Shown piece by piece: positions 29,600-35,976 of a stretch of DNA of 44,910 nucleotides; within the stretch, counting starts at the first letter, position 1; each line of letters opens with the position of its first letter. The notes beneath the pieces were generated by a model that did no database searches, was not told the DNA's origin, and worked only from the letters and a program-made list of their open reading frames with translations. This DNA is from Akkermansia muciniphila (lineage in GTDB: Bacteria > Verrucomicrobiota > Verrucomicrobiia > Verrucomicrobiales > Verrucomicrobiaceae). The position numbers and the translations under genes were made by a program. The DNA is taken from contig CAMAZK010000009.1 of the NCBI GenBank assembly GCA_945863205.1, forward strand, positions 1 through 44,910, given 5' to 3'.

Positions 29600-30589
29600 A
29601 TGCCTCCGCTGATCGAAGTCACCCATCCGAAGGGAATCTACCTCCCTGAGGCGGATTTGTGGCTGGATCCGCACCGGGGGAAGGAGCGGGCGTTCGTCTC
29701 CCATGCGCACAGCGATCACGCGGCGCGGCATGCGCTGACGATCTGCTCGGAGATCACGCATCAGCTGATGGTGGTGCGCAAAACAGCCAAGAAGTCGGGT
29801 GCGGTGATGACGCCGAGGATGCGGGAGGTTTTTGAATGGGAGGGCTGGGAGCTGCGGCTGCTGCCGGCGGGCCACATCACGGGATCGGCGATGCTGCATC
29901 TCACGCGGAAGGCGGACGGGGCCACGTTGCTTTACACTGGCGACTACAAGCTGCGGCAGGGACTCAGCGCGGAACGTTGTGAGCTGATGCAGGCGGACAC
30001 GCTGATCATGGAGACGACGTTTGGCCTGCCGAAATACCGCTTCCCGGCTGCGGAGGCGGTCATCGCGCAGATGCTGGAGTTTGTGCGTGAGACGCTGGCG
30101 GCGGGCGGGATTCCGGTGCTGCTGGGTTATTCGCTGGGGAAGGCGCAGGAGATTTTGTGCGCCCTGCGGGACTCGAAACTGCCGGTGATGGTGCATTCGA
30201 GCGTGGCGCGGATCACGGAGGTGCTGGCACCGCATCTGAGTGCGCTGCCGGAGTGGCGGCTTTTTGATGCGAAGGAAGCCGCCGGGCATGTGCTGGTGTT
30301 CCCACCGGGATCGAAGCTCGAACTGCCCGGCATGCGAACGATGGTGCTTTCCGGCTGGGCGCTGCAACCGAGCGCGAAATACCGCTACGGCGTCGATGTG
30401 GCGCTGCCGTTGAGCGATCACGCCGATCATCCGGAGCTGCTGGAAACGGTGGAGCGCGTGAAGCCGCGCCGGATTTACCTCGTACACGGGGCCACACGCG
30501 AGTTCGCCTCAGAGCTGCGCTCGATGGGCCACGATGCGCGGGCGCTGGGCGCGGAGGATCAGTTGGAACTGGCCTTGCAGGCGTCCTGA
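29600..30589 (+). CDS. Metallo-beta-lactamase-fold exonuclease/RNA-processing-type protein
   Basis: Start MPPLIEVTHPKGIYLPEADLWLDP inside ORF 28265-30589; 'AFVSHAHSDHAARH', 'LLPAGHITGSAMLHL', 'LLYTGDYKLR', 'PLSDHADHPELLE', 'IYLVHGATREFASELRSMG'. Confidence 0.82.
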   Translation: MPPLIEVTHPKGIYLPEADLWLDPHRGKERAFVSHAHSDHAARHALTICSEITHQLMVVRKTAKKSGAVMTPRMREVFEWEGWELRLLPAGHITGSAMLHLTRKADGATLLYTGDYKLRQGLSAERCELMQADTLIMETTFGLPKYRFPAAEAVIAQMLEFVRETLAAGGIPVLLGYSLGKAQEILCALRDSKLPVMVHSSVARITEVLAPHLSALPEWRLFDAKEAAGHVLVFPPGSKLELPGMRTMVLSGWALQPSAKYRYGVDVALPLSDHADHPELLETVERVKPRRIYLVHGATREFASELRSMGHDARALGAEDQLELALQAS

Positions 30590-30607
30590 GCCCTCGTAGA
30601 AATCAGC

Positions 30608-32818
30608 ATGCCATCCCAGGATAACCAAACTGCCGACCGCTCCTGGATGGAGGCTCTGGAGGATTTCCTGCTGGACGAGCCTGCCGTGGAGGCGATCCGG
30701 CTCAATCCGGCATCCAAACGGGTGGAAATGGCCACGCTGGGGCGGGTAGATGGCGAACTGCTGGAGGCCAAACTGGCGGAGGTGCTGCGCAGCGTGGACG
30801 CCAAGTGGCTGAAGCAACTGCCGGAGCACTCCCGGATGCTGGAGGTCAGTCAGAAGAGCGGCGTGACGCAGATCGAAAAGCCCTCCTGCCCGACTGCGCC
30901 GAAGTTCTGGAAGTGGCGTGAGTTTGAGTGGCCGGAGGCCGATGAGATCGAGCAGGAGAGCGATGACGAATGGCGCATGCTGGCGGGGCAGGCCGCCGTG
31001 TGCGGCGCGGCGCTCGTCGCGGGCTGGCTTTTTGACCAGCCCTGGCTGTTCGTGATTTCGCTCATCGCCGGCGGCTGGGACGCGGCGAAGGACGCGTGGG
31101 AAAACATCCGGGAGGGCCGCCTCGACGTGCATTTCCTGATGCTGGCCGTGGCGGCCGGCGCGGTGGCCATCGGCGCATGGGAGGAGGGGGCGCTGCTGCT
31201 CTTCCTTTTTTCAACAAGCGGAGCGCTGGAGCATTTCGTGCTCTATCGGACGCATCGCGAGATCAATGCGCTGACCAAGGCCGCGCCAAAAATCGCGCAC
31301 GTGCTGCTGCCGGACGGATCGACGGAGGATCGCGCGGTTTTGGGATTGCGCGTGGGCGAGGTGATCGTGGTGAAGCCGGACGAGCTCTTTGCCGTCGATG
31401 GCACGGTGATCTCCGGCCTCACGGCGGCGGATGAATCGACGCTGACGGGTGAGGCCATGCCGATCACGAAGGAACCCGGCGCGGCGATCTTTGGCGGGAC
31501 GCTGAACCTGTGGGGCCTGGCGCAGGTGCGTGTGGACAAACCGGCCACGCAGAGCGCCCTGGCGAAGATCATCACGCTCATCCAGACGGCGCAGCAGATG
31601 CGGGCGCCAAGTCAGCGCTTCACCGACCGCTTCGGCACGCGCTACACCATTCTCACGCTGAGCATCGTGGCGGTGATGTTCTTCGTGTGGTGGCTGGTCT
31701 TCGGCATTCCGCCCTTTGAAAATGTCGGGGAGGCCAAGTCCTCGTTCTATCGCGCCATGACGCTGTTGGTGGTGATGAGCCCCTGCGCGCTCGTTTTGTC
31801 GATTCCTTCGGCGATTCTGGCCGCCATCGCGTGGGGGGCGCGGCACGGCGTGCTCTTCCGCGGCGGCGCGGCCATCGAAAAGCTGGCGGAGGTCGATGTC
31901 ATCGCCATGGACAAGACCGGCACCCTCACGGAGGGCGAGTTGAAGGTCACGAAGATCGAATCCTTCCCCGCAGGACGCGAAGACGACGTGATGCACATCG
32001 CGGTGAGTCTGGAGTCGAACTCGAATCACCCCATCGCCCGCGCCATCACCCGGCATGGAAAGTCGCAGGGCATCGAGGCGGAAAAACTCGCCGAGTTTCA
32101 GTCCATCGCCGGTCAGGGCCTGCGCGGGCGCACGTCCGGCGGTCTCAGCTACGTGGGCCGCCGGGAACTGGTCAAAGACAGCGCCCTGGGAGATGCGCTG
32201 GAGGGCGTGCCGGACGCTCCCGTCGGTTTCAGCGAGGTCTGGGTGCTGCATCAGCAGATCGTCGGCCGCGTCCTGCTCAAAGACGAAGTCCGGCCCGGCA
32301 GCCGCGCCGTGCTGGAAAAGCTCGCCGCTGACGGCGTGCGCACCGTCATGCTCACCGGTGACCGCCGGGCGGCCGCCACGGAGGTGGCGAAGCAGCTCGG
32401 CCTCTCCGAAGTCCGCGCCGGGCTGCATCCTGAGGACAAAGTCGCCGCGATCCGCGAATTCACACAGCAGGGCTGCAAAGTGGCGATGGTGGGTGATGGC
32501 GTGAACGACGCCCCGAGCCTGGCCGCCGCCTACGTCAGCGTGGCCATGGGCGCCCGCGGCAGTGACGCCGCCCTGGAGCAGAGCGATGTGGTGCTCATGC
32601 AGGACAAGATCGAAAAACTGCTCTCCGCCCGGATGATCAGCCAGCAGGCGCGGCGCATCATCCAGCAGAACATTGTCATCTCCCTCGGCAGCGTCATCGT
32701 CATGGCCGTGGCCTCCCTGTTTGGGATCGTGCCACTGACCTTGGGGGTCCTGACCCACGAGGGCAGCACCGTGGTGGTGTGCCTGAACAGCCTGAGGCTG
32801 CTGTTCCAGAAGGAATGA
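30608..32818 (+). CDS. P1B-type (P1B-4/CoaT-like) heavy-metal-transporting ATPase
   Basis: 'TGEAMPITK', TM motif 'MSPCALVLSIPSAI' (SPC), 'DKTGTLTEG', 'VMLTGDRRAAA', 'VAMVGDGVNDAPSLAAAYV', C-terminal TM 'LTHEGSTVVVCLNSLRLL'. N-terminus lacks CxxC. Confidence 0.9.
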   Translation: MPSQDNQTADRSWMEALEDFLLDEPAVEAIRLNPASKRVEMATLGRVDGELLEAKLAEVLRSVDAKWLKQLPEHSRMLEVSQKSGVTQIEKPSCPTAPKFWKWREFEWPEADEIEQESDDEWRMLAGQAAVCGAALVAGWLFDQPWLFVISLIAGGWDAAKDAWENIREGRLDVHFLMLAVAAGAVAIGAWEEGALLLFLFSTSGALEHFVLYRTHREINALTKAAPKIAHVLLPDGSTEDRAVLGLRVGEVIVVKPDELFAVDGTVISGLTAADESTLTGEAMPITKEPGAAIFGGTLNLWGLAQVRVDKPATQSALAKIITLIQTAQQMRAPSQRFTDRFGTRYTILTLSIVAVMFFVWWLVFGIPPFENVGEAKSSFYRAMTLLVVMSPCALVLSIPSAILAAIAWGARHGVLFRGGAAIEKLAEVDVIAMDKTGTLTEGELKVTKIESFPAGREDDVMHIAVSLESNSNHPIARAITRHGKSQGIEAEKLAEFQSIAGQGLRGRTSGGLSYVGRRELVKDSALGDALEGVPDAPVGFSEVWVLHQQIVGRVLLKDEVRPGSRAVLEKLAADGVRTVMLTGDRRAAATEVAKQLGLSEVRAGLHPEDKVAAIREFTQQGCKVAMVGDGVNDAPSLAAAYVSVAMGARGSDAALEQSDVVLMQDKIEKLLSARMISQQARRIIQQNIVISLGSVIVMAVASLFGIVPLTLGVLTHEGSTVVVCLNSLRLLFQKE
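32548..32818 (+). repeat. Direct repeat copy 1: 3' end of intact metal ATPase gene
   Basis: Aligns without gaps to 34032-34302 (offset 1484 bp); about 14 mismatches by hand count. Confidence 0.93.
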
Positions 32819-32883
32819 TTTCGCACTGTCGTTTTTTTCACCCGTCCGCTCTCCCTCTCTGCCCTGACCGAGATCTTGTCAAA

Positions 32884-32908
32884 GGGGTGAAGCCTCACCC
32901 CATTTTCC
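32884..32908 (+). terminator. Hairpin, possible terminator downstream of the P-type ATPase
   Basis: GGGGTGA-AGCC-TCACCCC perfect 7-bp stem followed by ATTTTCCC. Confidence 0.3.
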
Positions 32909-32975
32909 CGCCAGCGTTCGGGGTGGTAGGCCTGAATGAGGAGGAGCACAGCTCCAGAGGAGCGGGCATGGGAAT

Positions 32976-33365
32976 CTATTGCTCGGTAATGACCGTGAGG
33001 CCTGGCACACCCTTGAAGTGGCGGGCATTGTGCGTGACCAGAGGCATGCCGTGTTGCAGGGCTGTGGCTGCGATCCAGGAATCCGCAAGCGACATGGGCT
33101 GGCCCCGCATGGTGCGGCCAACGAGTCCTGCCCACACCCAAGCAAGGCGGTTGTTGAAGGGGAGAACCACAAAACGTGATTTGATGAACTGCTCCAGATG
33201 AAGTCTCCGCGCTTCTGACCAGTTCTGCGCGTAAGGCCACCGGTAGATTTCAGCGAGAGTCATGAATGAAACATACCACTGCTGCCCCAAGAGATGGGGC
33301 TGATAGACGGCGGCTCTGGAATCCCCTTTGTAAATGTAGCTGATGATGTTGGTATCAATCAGCAT
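32976..33365 (-). CDS. PIN-domain (VapC-like) ribonuclease toxin
   Basis: Start MLIDTNIISYIYKGDSRAAVYQPHL within ORF 32976-33596; PIN acidic residues in 'LIDTN', 'LAEIYRWP', 'LADSWIAATAL', and 'LVTHNARHF'. Confidence 0.85.
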   Translation of the reverse strand: MLIDTNIISYIYKGDSRAAVYQPHLLGQQWYVSFMTLAEIYRWPYAQNWSEARRLHLEQFIKSRFVVLPFNNRLAWVWAGLVGRTMRGQPMSLADSWIAATALQHGMPLVTHNARHFKGVPGLTVITEQ

Positions 33366-33792
33366 GCAGGTGGCCTCCAGCGGGGATTTTCTCTGATCTC
33401 CACTGCTCCAAGGCCTCATCAAAGCCCTCCCACTCAGAGGCAGTGCCGTCACCGTAGAACTCCTCAGCGTTGCGGATGATTGGTACCTTTTGCAACTCTG
33501 CTTGTTGCCGTGCTGAGAGCGGATGCCAGAAGTCCTGCGCCGCTGCGTCGTCCGCATCAATGAAAGTCGGCGCATCTGGATCGTAGCCAGGGCCATAGGT
33601 CATGTAACCCGCACCGCTACCCATCCAATCGGCCATGGTGACAGCCGGTTCCTCGGGTGGCGGCGGGCTAAGCACGGCCACCACCTTTCCGCTGCTGAGG
33701 ATCTCAATGACGGTATCGCCGCTCTGGACGGATTTAATCTCGTCGAGGCAATGCGCCGCGAAGTTGCCAAGGGTCAGTTGTCGAGTGCTCAT
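33355..33792 (-). CDS. Phd/YefM-like antitoxin with C-terminal extension
   Basis: Start MSTRQLTLGNFAAHCLDEIKSVQSGDTVIEILSSGKVVAVLSPP; overlaps vapC-like gene by 11 bp. C-terminal extra 'LSARQQAELQKVPIIRNAEEFYGDGTASEWEGFDEALEQW'. Confidence 0.65.
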   Translation of the reverse strand: MSTRQLTLGNFAAHCLDEIKSVQSGDTVIEILSSGKVVAVLSPPPPEEPAVTMADWMGSGAGYMTYGPGYDPDAPTFIDADDAAAQDFWHPLSARQQAELQKVPIIRNAEEFYGDGTASEWEGFDEALEQWRSEKIPAGGHLHAD

Positions 33793-33823
33793 GAGGCGAT
33801 GGTAAGGGAGGGGGCGAAAACCG

Positions 33824-34018
33824 TCAATGCCCTGCAAAGTACTCCGAAAGGATGATGGCGGGCGGCAGTTCGGCGGTGGAGTGACCGCCGCAGGCATCCT
33901 CGACTTTGGAATCTGCGCCGTCCTGAAGCGGGCACTTGCTGAGGATTTCGAGCGTCTTGTCCAACAGCACAGAAGACTGAAGCGCGTCTTCTTGTGCGCC
34001 TTTTCCGAGGCATTCAGA
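33824..34018 (-). pseudogene. Possible truncated gene remnant (C-terminal ~64 codons, no start)
   Basis: Reverse-strand frame SECLGKGAQEDALQSSVLLDKTLEILSKCPLQDGADSKVEDACGGHSTAELPPAIILSEYFAGH*, with stops immediately upstream at the junction with the ATPase fragment. Confidence 0.4.
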
Positions 34019-34031
34019 TCACGCTCAAGAC

Positions 34032-34302
34032 GGGCGCCCGCGGCAGTGACGCCGCCCTGGAGCAGAGTGATGTCGTGCTGATGCAGGACAAGATCGAAAA
34101 ACTGCTCTCCGCCCGGATGATCAGCCAGCAGGCGCGGCGCATCATCCAGCAGAACATCGTCATCTCCCTCGGCAGCGTCATCGTCATGGCCGTGGCGTCC
34201 CTGTTTGGCATTGTGCCGCTCACTTTGGGAGTCCTGACCCACGAGGGTAGCACCGTGGTGGTCTGCCTGAACAGCCTGCGGCTGCTGTTCCAGAAGGAAT
34301 GA
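34032..34302 (+). pseudogene. Direct repeat copy 2: 3' fragment of the metal ATPase gene
   Basis: Encodes GARGSDAALEQSDVV...THEGSTVVVCLNSLRLLFQKE*, protein-identical to the last ~89 residues of the 30608-32818 product. A GTG at 33994 could open a 102-codon ORF. Confidence 0.85.
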
Positions 34303-34384
34303 TTCGGCAGTGTCGTTTTTCCGTCTGGGCAACTCCGTGCTGGACGATTCGGGCCTTTTCTTCATAGAGTGAGGAAAATCCCAC

Positions 34385-34546
34385 ATGCGCATTCTCTCCA
34401 AAGTCCTCTGGACCCTGGCTTTTCTGGCCGCGACCTTCATCTGGATGGTGCTCTTTGAGCACGGATTCAGCATGAAGGCGCTGACGGAAGGCTCGAGCGA
34501 GGAATTGCGCGCCATCGCCGCCTGGTTCGGCGGCGGGAAAAAGTGA
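34385..34546 (+). CDS. Small single-TM protein (53 aa)
   Basis: MRILSKVLWTLAFLAATFIWMVLFEHGFSMKALTEGSSEELRAIAAWFGGGKK; ATG at 34385, stop 34544-34546; plausible TM topology (below the ORF-track size cutoff). Confidence 0.55.
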   Translation: MRILSKVLWTLAFLAATFIWMVLFEHGFSMKALTEGSSEELRAIAAWFGGGKK

Positions 34547-34590: not shown

Positions 34591-35976
34591 ATGATCGTTA
34601 CGGAAGCCGAACTCGACCCCAAGTACCAAGCCCTTTGGAAAAAAGCGCTGATCTCCGCCGAGCGGAAAAACTGGGAGTACGTCATTGATCAGGTGCTGCC
34701 CATCGTGAAAGGCAATTTCGGCTTCCTGGACGGCCGTAAGCTGCTGCGCACGGCGGAGAGCGAAGTCACCGGCGGCAGCGGCGGCAAGAAATTCAGCTTC
34801 GGACTGGGCGGACTCAAACCCATCTCCAAAAAGGACCCGGAAGATGTCGTCGCCGAGCTGGAAGAGAACGTTTTCCGCAAGGATCCCTTCAATCTCAACG
34901 CGAACGAGCAGCTCTATGACATCGCGATGAAGATGCATTTCTGGGAGCTGGCGGCCTTCGCACTGGAAACGATCCGCGCCGGGCATCCGCAGAACACCAA
35001 GCACATGCACAAGCTGGCGCAGCATTACATGGCCTACGAGCAGCCTGACAAGGCCTCCGACGTGTACGCGGCCATCCGCAAGGTCGATCCGAAGGACATG
35101 GACGCCCAAAAGGGTGAGAAAGACGCGGCCGCACGCAGCTCCATCAAGAATCAAGGCTGGGGAGCCGCGGAAACCGGCGGCGGATTCCAGAGCGCCATGA
35201 AGGACGCCAGCGAGGCTGCCAAGCTGGAAATGCTCGACCGCCAGGGCATGACCCGGGACCAGATGGAGCAATTCCTGGGGGAGACGATCGAGCAGTACAA
35301 TGCCGACCAGACGAACATCCTCTACGTGAAGCGCATGGCCGACCTCTACGAGCGTCTGGAGCAGATCGACAGCGCCCTGATGTTCTACGATTACGCCCTG
35401 ACTCTGAACCCCGGGGACGTGGCCCTGCAGCGGAAGGTGGAAATCATCCGCGACAAGGTGCAGGACAAGCAGATCGAAGACTTCGAGCGCGACATCGAGT
35501 CCAACCCGGACGCGCCCGACATCGAAGAAAAGCGGGCGCAGGTAGCGGACATCCGCCGCCAGCGAGCCGAGGTGGTTATCAACGAGGCCAAAGGCCGCGT
35601 GGACCGCAACCCCACCGACAAAACGCTCCGCTACGAACTGGGGCAGGCCTACTTTAACGCCGGCCTCTACACCGAGGCCATCCCGGAACTCCAGCAGGCA
35701 AAGTCCAACCCGAACATGCGCATCAAGGCCATCCTGATGCTGGGCCGCTGCTTCGAGCGCAAGAACATGAACGACCTCGCGAAGACGTCGCTCTCGGAGG
35801 CCGCCAACGAGCTCGTCGTCATGGACGCGATCAAAAAAGAGGTCCTCTACGAACTGGCCAACGTGCTGGAAAAAATGGGCGACCGCGCGGGCAGCCTCGA
35901 TCAGCTGAAGGAAATCTACAACGCGGACTACGGCTATCGTGACGTGGCGAAGCGGGTGGAATCCTCCTACAACTGA
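34591..35976 (+). CDS. TPR-repeat protein
   Basis: 461 aa; 'LYDIAMKMHFWELAAFALETIRAGHPQNTKHMHKLAQHYMA', 'ALMFYDYALTLNPGDVALQRKVE', 'RYELGQAYFNAGLYTEAIPELQQAKSNPNMRIKAILMLGRCF'. Confidence 0.8.
   Translation: MIVTEAELDPKYQALWKKALISAERKNWEYVIDQVLPIVKGNFGFLDGRKLLRTAESEVTGGSGGKKFSFGLGGLKPISKKDPEDVVAELEENVFRKDPFNLNANEQLYDIAMKMHFWELAAFALETIRAGHPQNTKHMHKLAQHYMAYEQPDKASDVYAAIRKVDPKDMDAQKGEKDAAARSSIKNQGWGAAETGGGFQSAMKDASEAAKLEMLDRQGMTRDQMEQFLGETIEQYNADQTNILYVKRMADLYERLEQIDSALMFYDYALTLNPGDVALQRKVEIIRDKVQDKQIEDFERDIESNPDAPDIEEKRAQVADIRRQRAEVVINEAKGRVDRNPTDKTLRYELGQAYFNAGLYTEAIPELQQAKSNPNMRIKAILMLGRCFERKNMNDLAKTSLSEAANELVVMDAIKKEVLYELANVLEKMGDRAGSLDQLKEIYNADYGYRDVAKRVESSYN

Follow-up and report, generated by a model that had tools for sequence, protein, structure and literature searches.

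A silently diverged duplicate of a metal ATPase gene end around a PIN-type toxin-antitoxin segment, a possible scar of one-sided recombination in an uncultured Verrucomicrobiaceae genome

How can the 3' end of a gene come to lie twice in one contig, in two copies that differ at many nucleotides and at no amino acid, with a toxin-antitoxin (TA) pair between them? The question is raised by a stretch of 44,910 nucleotides, hereafter the window (contig CAMAZK010000009.1 of assembly GCA_945863205.1), which belongs to a metagenome bin (420 contigs, 79% complete) of an uncultured Prosthecobacter-like bacterium, coded G000, and in which the end of a P1B heavy-metal ATPase gene recurs behind such a pair. 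The answer to which we give slightly more credence than doubt is that the locus represents the scar of one-sided (homology-facilitated illegitimate) recombination of imported DNA.

The original prediction had described a duplication of the last 271 bp of the ATPase gene with about 14 substitutions, all synonymous, and the same ~89 amino acids in both copies, and the alignment reproduces this exactly: positions 32548-32818 and 34032-34302 align without gaps and with 14 mismatches over 271 bp, both copies in the ATPase frame yield an identical 89 amino acids plus stop, and 14 of 14 substitutions are synonymous. The similarity extends ~18 bp beyond the stop into a T-rich terminator (32548-32836 versus 34032-34320; 289 bp, 94.1% identity, E 4e-124), its 5' edge at 34032 is abrupt, and nowhere are the copies identical over more than 77 bp. 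The copies enclose 1213 bp at a repeat offset of 1484 bp, and direct repeats of this kind are very rare in the ~1.2 of 4.9 Mb of G000, i.e., a sampled quarter, that were scanned; the repeat is not a product of chance. The features of the locus, with the small open reading frame (ORF) behind the ATPase gene, are as follows:

29600-30586, plus strand: ligase-associated exonuclease (RMMBL/beta-CASP type), single copy in the genome.
30608-32818, plus strand: full-length P1B heavy-metal ATPase with an SPC motif (TIGR01512/TIGR01525).
32548-32836, plus strand: copy 1, ATPase 3' end and terminator (sequence alignment).
32837-32975, no strand: junction J1, past the T-run of the terminator, with a GGGGTGA-TCACCCC hairpin; unrelated to the spacer between ATPase and small ORF of relatives.
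32976-33365, minus strand: PIN-domain toxin (VapC-like), 129 amino acids (Pfam PF01850, E 1.5e-15).
33367-33792, minus strand: antitoxin-like gene, 141 amino acids, immediately upstream of the PIN gene, a pairing conserved in relatives.
33824-34031, minus strand: last ~62 codons of an SNF2-type (DrmD-like) helicase, cut off at the junction (homology to the helicases of relatives).
34032-34036, plus strand: junction J2, GGGCG common to helicase and ATPase sequence (also at 32548-32552).
34032-34320, plus strand: copy 2, 5'-truncated ATPase 3' end and terminator, joined to native downstream genes (alignment and comparison with relatives).
34385-34546, plus strand: small membrane ORF, 53 amino acids, directly behind the ATPase in relatives.
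34591-35976, plus strand: TPR-repeat protein, native downstream gene.

The comparison set comprised 68 family genomes (67 besides G000), none of the same species, the relatives being metagenome-assembled genomes labelled Prosthecobacter, Verrucomicrobiaceae and similar. The ATPase gene, the small ORF and the TPR gene are contiguous in at least 17 genus members (G001, G002, G004, G008, G011, G012, G013, G015, G017, G021, G023, G026, G028, G030, G032, G058 and G067), indicating that copy 2 is the native 3' end, and the 1484-bp insertion was absent from all 67 other family genomes searched. Two checks had been proposed with the original prediction, namely whether the ATPase gene is normally adjoined by the ORF at 34385-34546 and whether the locus occurs without the 1484-bp segment, and both were answered in the affirmative. 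A tandem duplication of ATPase, small ORF and TPR gene followed by loss was rejected, as no remnant of the small ORF or the TPR gene lies between the copies.

Divergence restricted to silent sites was also observed among full-length genes, as orthologues in the genus that differ from each other by 12-23 substitutions in the same C-terminal stretch often encode the same amino acids, and the 0 of 14 nonsynonymous changes therefore represents the ordinary difference of two functional alleles. When polarity was set by the outgroup states of the relatives, at least four changes private to copy 2 (32584, 32728, 32764 and 32779, in copy 1 numbering) and five private to copy 1 (32596, 32674, 32725, 32734 and 32795) were detected, all of them silent. 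Were the fragment neutral, all four copy-2-private changes would be silent with P ~0.004-0.009, which points to a recent separation of copy 2 from a functional allele. The proposal of a junction between two full-length alleles that had diverged under selection is thus upheld by the lack of nonsynonymous changes, by the orthologue background and by these silent private changes. The same silence could instead reflect a simple duplication in place, with the fragment retained through expression and selection, and the zero nonsynonymous changes together with a reading frame that is open from a GTG at 33994 would agree with this. Against it, the fragment has neither the ATPase start nor the catalytic domains, the insert in front of it is foreign, and similar fragments at other genes, such as that on contig C72 described below, carry amino-acid changes, which leaves this alternative very improbable; the earlier suggestion that the fragment is itself expressed and selected found no support, and copy 2 is most likely without function now.

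The two alleles appear closely related, since copy 1 and copy 2 are sisters with 99% support in a tree of the repeat stretch and have FQKE and the same 3' untranslated region in common. An incoming allele taken directly from the lineage in which the ATPase has its other context (G029, G016, G014, G027) was rejected on the same grounds. The window ATPase groups with a clade of G029, G016, G014, G027 and G011; judged by TPR and exonuclease genes, most of these genomes stand much further from the window, and this conflict suggests that the ATPase itself was probably exchanged within the genus.

Between the copies, the predicted TA module was recovered in the form of the PIN toxin and the antitoxin-like gene. 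Homologues of the toxin (60-72%) are present in G013, G028, G056 and G024, and its scores fall under the NCBIfam cut-offs for tRNA(fMet)-specific VapC; the antitoxin-like gene matched no Pfam, NCBIfam or PADLOC model and could not be assigned to a known VapB/Phd family, and for this reason the pair is called VapC-like only. Judged by comparison with relatives, the segment is foreign. G024 and G021 each have a helicase that PADLOC classes as DrmD-like, and behind it lie in turn an antitoxin-like gene, a gene for a toxin (in G024 the PIN homologue) and one for a type IIG restriction-modification enzyme. This neighbourhood indicates that the insert is a piece of a defence locus; no full helicase copy was found elsewhere in G000. 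The description of the insert as a TA cassette therefore holds for its TA content and falls short of its extent, as it also includes the helicase end cut from such a locus. In several genus members (L061, L174) a DrmD-like helicase and a type IIG restriction-modification enzyme likewise flank TA-type genes. No integrase was found in the segment, and PIN is the only domain found among its ORFs. An insertion sequence or composite transposon was rejected, with no transposase domain among the segment ORFs tested, and so was the J1 hairpin as a repeated element, which has one copy in ~1 Mb. Loop-out of the TA cassette through the direct repeats is plausible from their arrangement, and the TA pair may hinder loss by recombination between them.

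For one-sided recombination to have produced this structure, the donor would have been a close relative at ~5% divergence in which the TA segment and the piece of the defence helicase lay behind an ATPase allele. The incoming DNA would have been anchored by homologous recombination inside the ATPase gene, and GGGCG microhomology would have served to join its non-homologous end to the resident copy of that gene at a point 271 bp short of the gene's end, whether straight away or after circularisation and Campbell-type integration; what remained would be a complete ATPase gene, the foreign cassette and the severed 3' end of the resident allele, still followed by the terminator, small ORF and TPR gene native to it. 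The locus displays one ATPase 3' end in two diverged alleles, as a homologous anchor would leave; a helicase/ATPase joint at 34032-34036 where identity is no longer than GGGCG (5 bp), weak by itself; and foreign DNA between the joints that is absent in relatives. We infer import rather than joining within the genome, and likewise the order of events.

Several observations weigh against import. GGGCG is a mere 5 bp in a GC-rich genome; no donor in which the ATPase adjoins this TA pair was found in the 68 family genomes; ComEC is present in G000, but it is not diagnostic of competence and also occurs in the Escherichia coli control; the genome is a fragmented metagenome bin, and the joint is seen in an assembled contig; and the upstream neighbour of the ATPase is also new (RMMBL as against other upstream genes in relatives), so that a second rearrangement is needed. 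The predicted entry of an ATPase allele plus TA cassette into a resident locus thus remains the best reading, given the relatives without the insertion, and is tempered by the missing donor and the rearranged 5' neighbour. We therefore claim no more than that the process works like homology-facilitated illegitimate recombination.

The new upstream neighbour makes an event within the genome a serious rival, which we regard as unlikely. Two full ATPase copies would once have existed, one beside RMMBL and the TA/helicase genes and the other before the small ORF and TPR gene, and a deletion or inversion through GGGCG would have fused the helicase to the 3' end of the second copy, with loss of its 5' part. 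The 3' end of the RMMBL exonuclease abuts a convergent aroK in nearly all relatives examined, whereas in the window the exonuclease lies only 21 bp before the ATPase (breakpoint J0, ~30571-30640), an order found in no relative. In G000 aroK, the usual partner of RMMBL, is located on contig C169, and its 3' end is duplicated on C53 behind a methyltransferase-like gene (L186 6817-7059 versus L187 9825-10067, 242 of 243 positions identical, with a changed aroK C-terminal tail), which points to a much rearranged neighbourhood; the ATPase is found in two genomic contexts across the genus; and divergence at silent sites only is explained equally well. This rival nevertheless requires an earlier duplication or import of the whole ATPase gene, two close ATPase copies were seen in no genome searched, and it leaves unexplained the recurrence of similar structures at unrelated genes.

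Contigs C53 and C169 terminate at the same base after aroK, which indicates that branching does occur in the assembly, and two strain haplotypes, with and without the insertion, might have been strung together in the window contig. The state of the bin (its many contigs and partial completeness) and the ~5% divergence, which is typical of co-occurring strains, are in keeping with such an artefact. The joint at 34032, on the other hand, shares 5 bp and no k-mer, and with a longest identical run of 77 bp de Bruijn joining without spanning reads is not expected; comparable structures were also detected in other assemblies (G015, G027), and misassembly is accordingly rather improbable.

Homology-facilitated illegitimate recombination has been obtained experimentally in transformable Acinetobacter, Pseudomonas stutzeri and Streptococcus pneumoniae (PMC2884548, PMC3240628, PMC5361080). 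The window resembles it in having one homologous anchor and one illegitimate end, with foreign DNA trapped beside a conserved gene; it differs in that the laboratory events were transformations with defined donor DNA, while here an uncultured Verrucomicrobiaceae genome offers a scar from which the process is read, with a 271-bp duplication left in place. Resident DNA is frequently replaced or deleted in laboratory events of this kind. The minimal mobile elements of Neisseria are similar to the window in that accessory genes lacking any mobility genes are swapped at sites flanked by conserved genes, but both of their ends are homologous and no duplicated gene end is left. In Vibrio cholerae type VI secretion system arrays and in Rhs and contact-dependent inhibition loci a new module likewise lies behind the conserved part of a gene and the old 3' end is displaced downstream, and the same mechanism has been invoked for the displaced ends in the Vibrio arrays (PMC5361080); there toxin domains and immunity genes are swapped under obvious selection, whereas in the window the full sequence of a metal pump is retained and the gain is an unrelated TA cassette. 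The merodiploids of S. pneumoniae transformation are also partial duplications made by imported DNA, and unlike the window they are mostly large tandem duplications at repeats, and unstable (PMC3784515).

The wider interest of the window structure is its recurrence. The scan that revealed further cases was based on nucleotides only, sampled and without gene calls, and the count is therefore a lower bound. In G000, a transketolase gene (L187, C169, 2204-5166) is followed by an NYN-domain gene and then by 185 bp that match the transketolase 3' end at 91%, ~970 bp apart; a 968-amino-acid ORF (L207, C72, 14852-16043) has behind it a PIN-domain gene and then its own 3' end in diverged form, 1045 bp apart, with 10 nonsynonymous codons; and a 5'-end mirror case (L280, C109, 3985-4956) consists of an N-terminal fragment of a 1171-amino-acid ORF, an inserted ORF and the full ORF, the duplicate being 89 bp at 94%, 883 bp apart. 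In other genomes, a 1030-amino-acid biotin-dependent carboxylase-like ORF in G015 (C82; L172/L262) is followed by a GNAT gene and an ORF 3'-end copy 1016 bp downstream, and a defence helicase in G027 (C144; L175, 7014-8346) by a PolyVal-kinase gene and a helicase 3'-end copy, past which lie a REP-type transposase-like ORF and then a type IIG restriction-modification gene. G006 has the same sequence just past transketolase, with a short older tail remnant.

Copy divergence across the cases is ~5 to 20%, and of four cases counted, three have mostly silent changes inside the matched part. Within the sampled quarter of G000, each of the three 3'-end cases that lie on one contig encloses a PIN-fold nuclease gene (PIN, PIN and NYN), an apparent cargo preference that rests on three cases. 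That unrelated genes show the pattern lowers the likelihood both of a site-specific element and of a misassembly that happened once. An integrative element with site specificity for gene 3' ends, which it rebuilds on entry as e14 does in icd, would account for a 3' end restored by a silently different copy and for inserts of ~1 kb; yet the segment has no integrase, no fixed core or site was observed, targets, contents and repeat lengths (~100-290 bp) vary by case, the left edge lies inside the helicase gene, and the 5'-end version on C109 exists, so that we give this alternative hardly any credence. One-sided recombination of imported DNA is the likeliest account of the whole set, as it needs no integrase and fits the 3' and the 5' cases alike. 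A broader generalization, put forward here as a long shot, would be that Verrucomicrobiaceae recurrently gain single toxin-like cassettes (PIN, NYN and similar) through a copied end of a neighbouring gene, the gene staying intact, the duplicate marking the insertion and the TA pair blocking loop-out.

Silently diverged gene-end duplications may thus be read as fossils of one-sided recombination, which show the allele that was cut, the divergence of the partner and the DNA that was gained; if confirmed, they would offer a simple way to count one-sided events in uncultured bacteria, where transformation is not testable, and would let one ask why TA genes so often form the cargo. A further kind of repeat was observed directly behind the ATPase in G033 and G019, where ~102-bp near-palindromic repeats (AAGTGATGCGGGCACTC...), resembling miniature inverted-repeat transposable elements, form pairs 790 bp apart (L038 6027-6128 and 6819-6920; L040 5697-5797 and 6488-6589).

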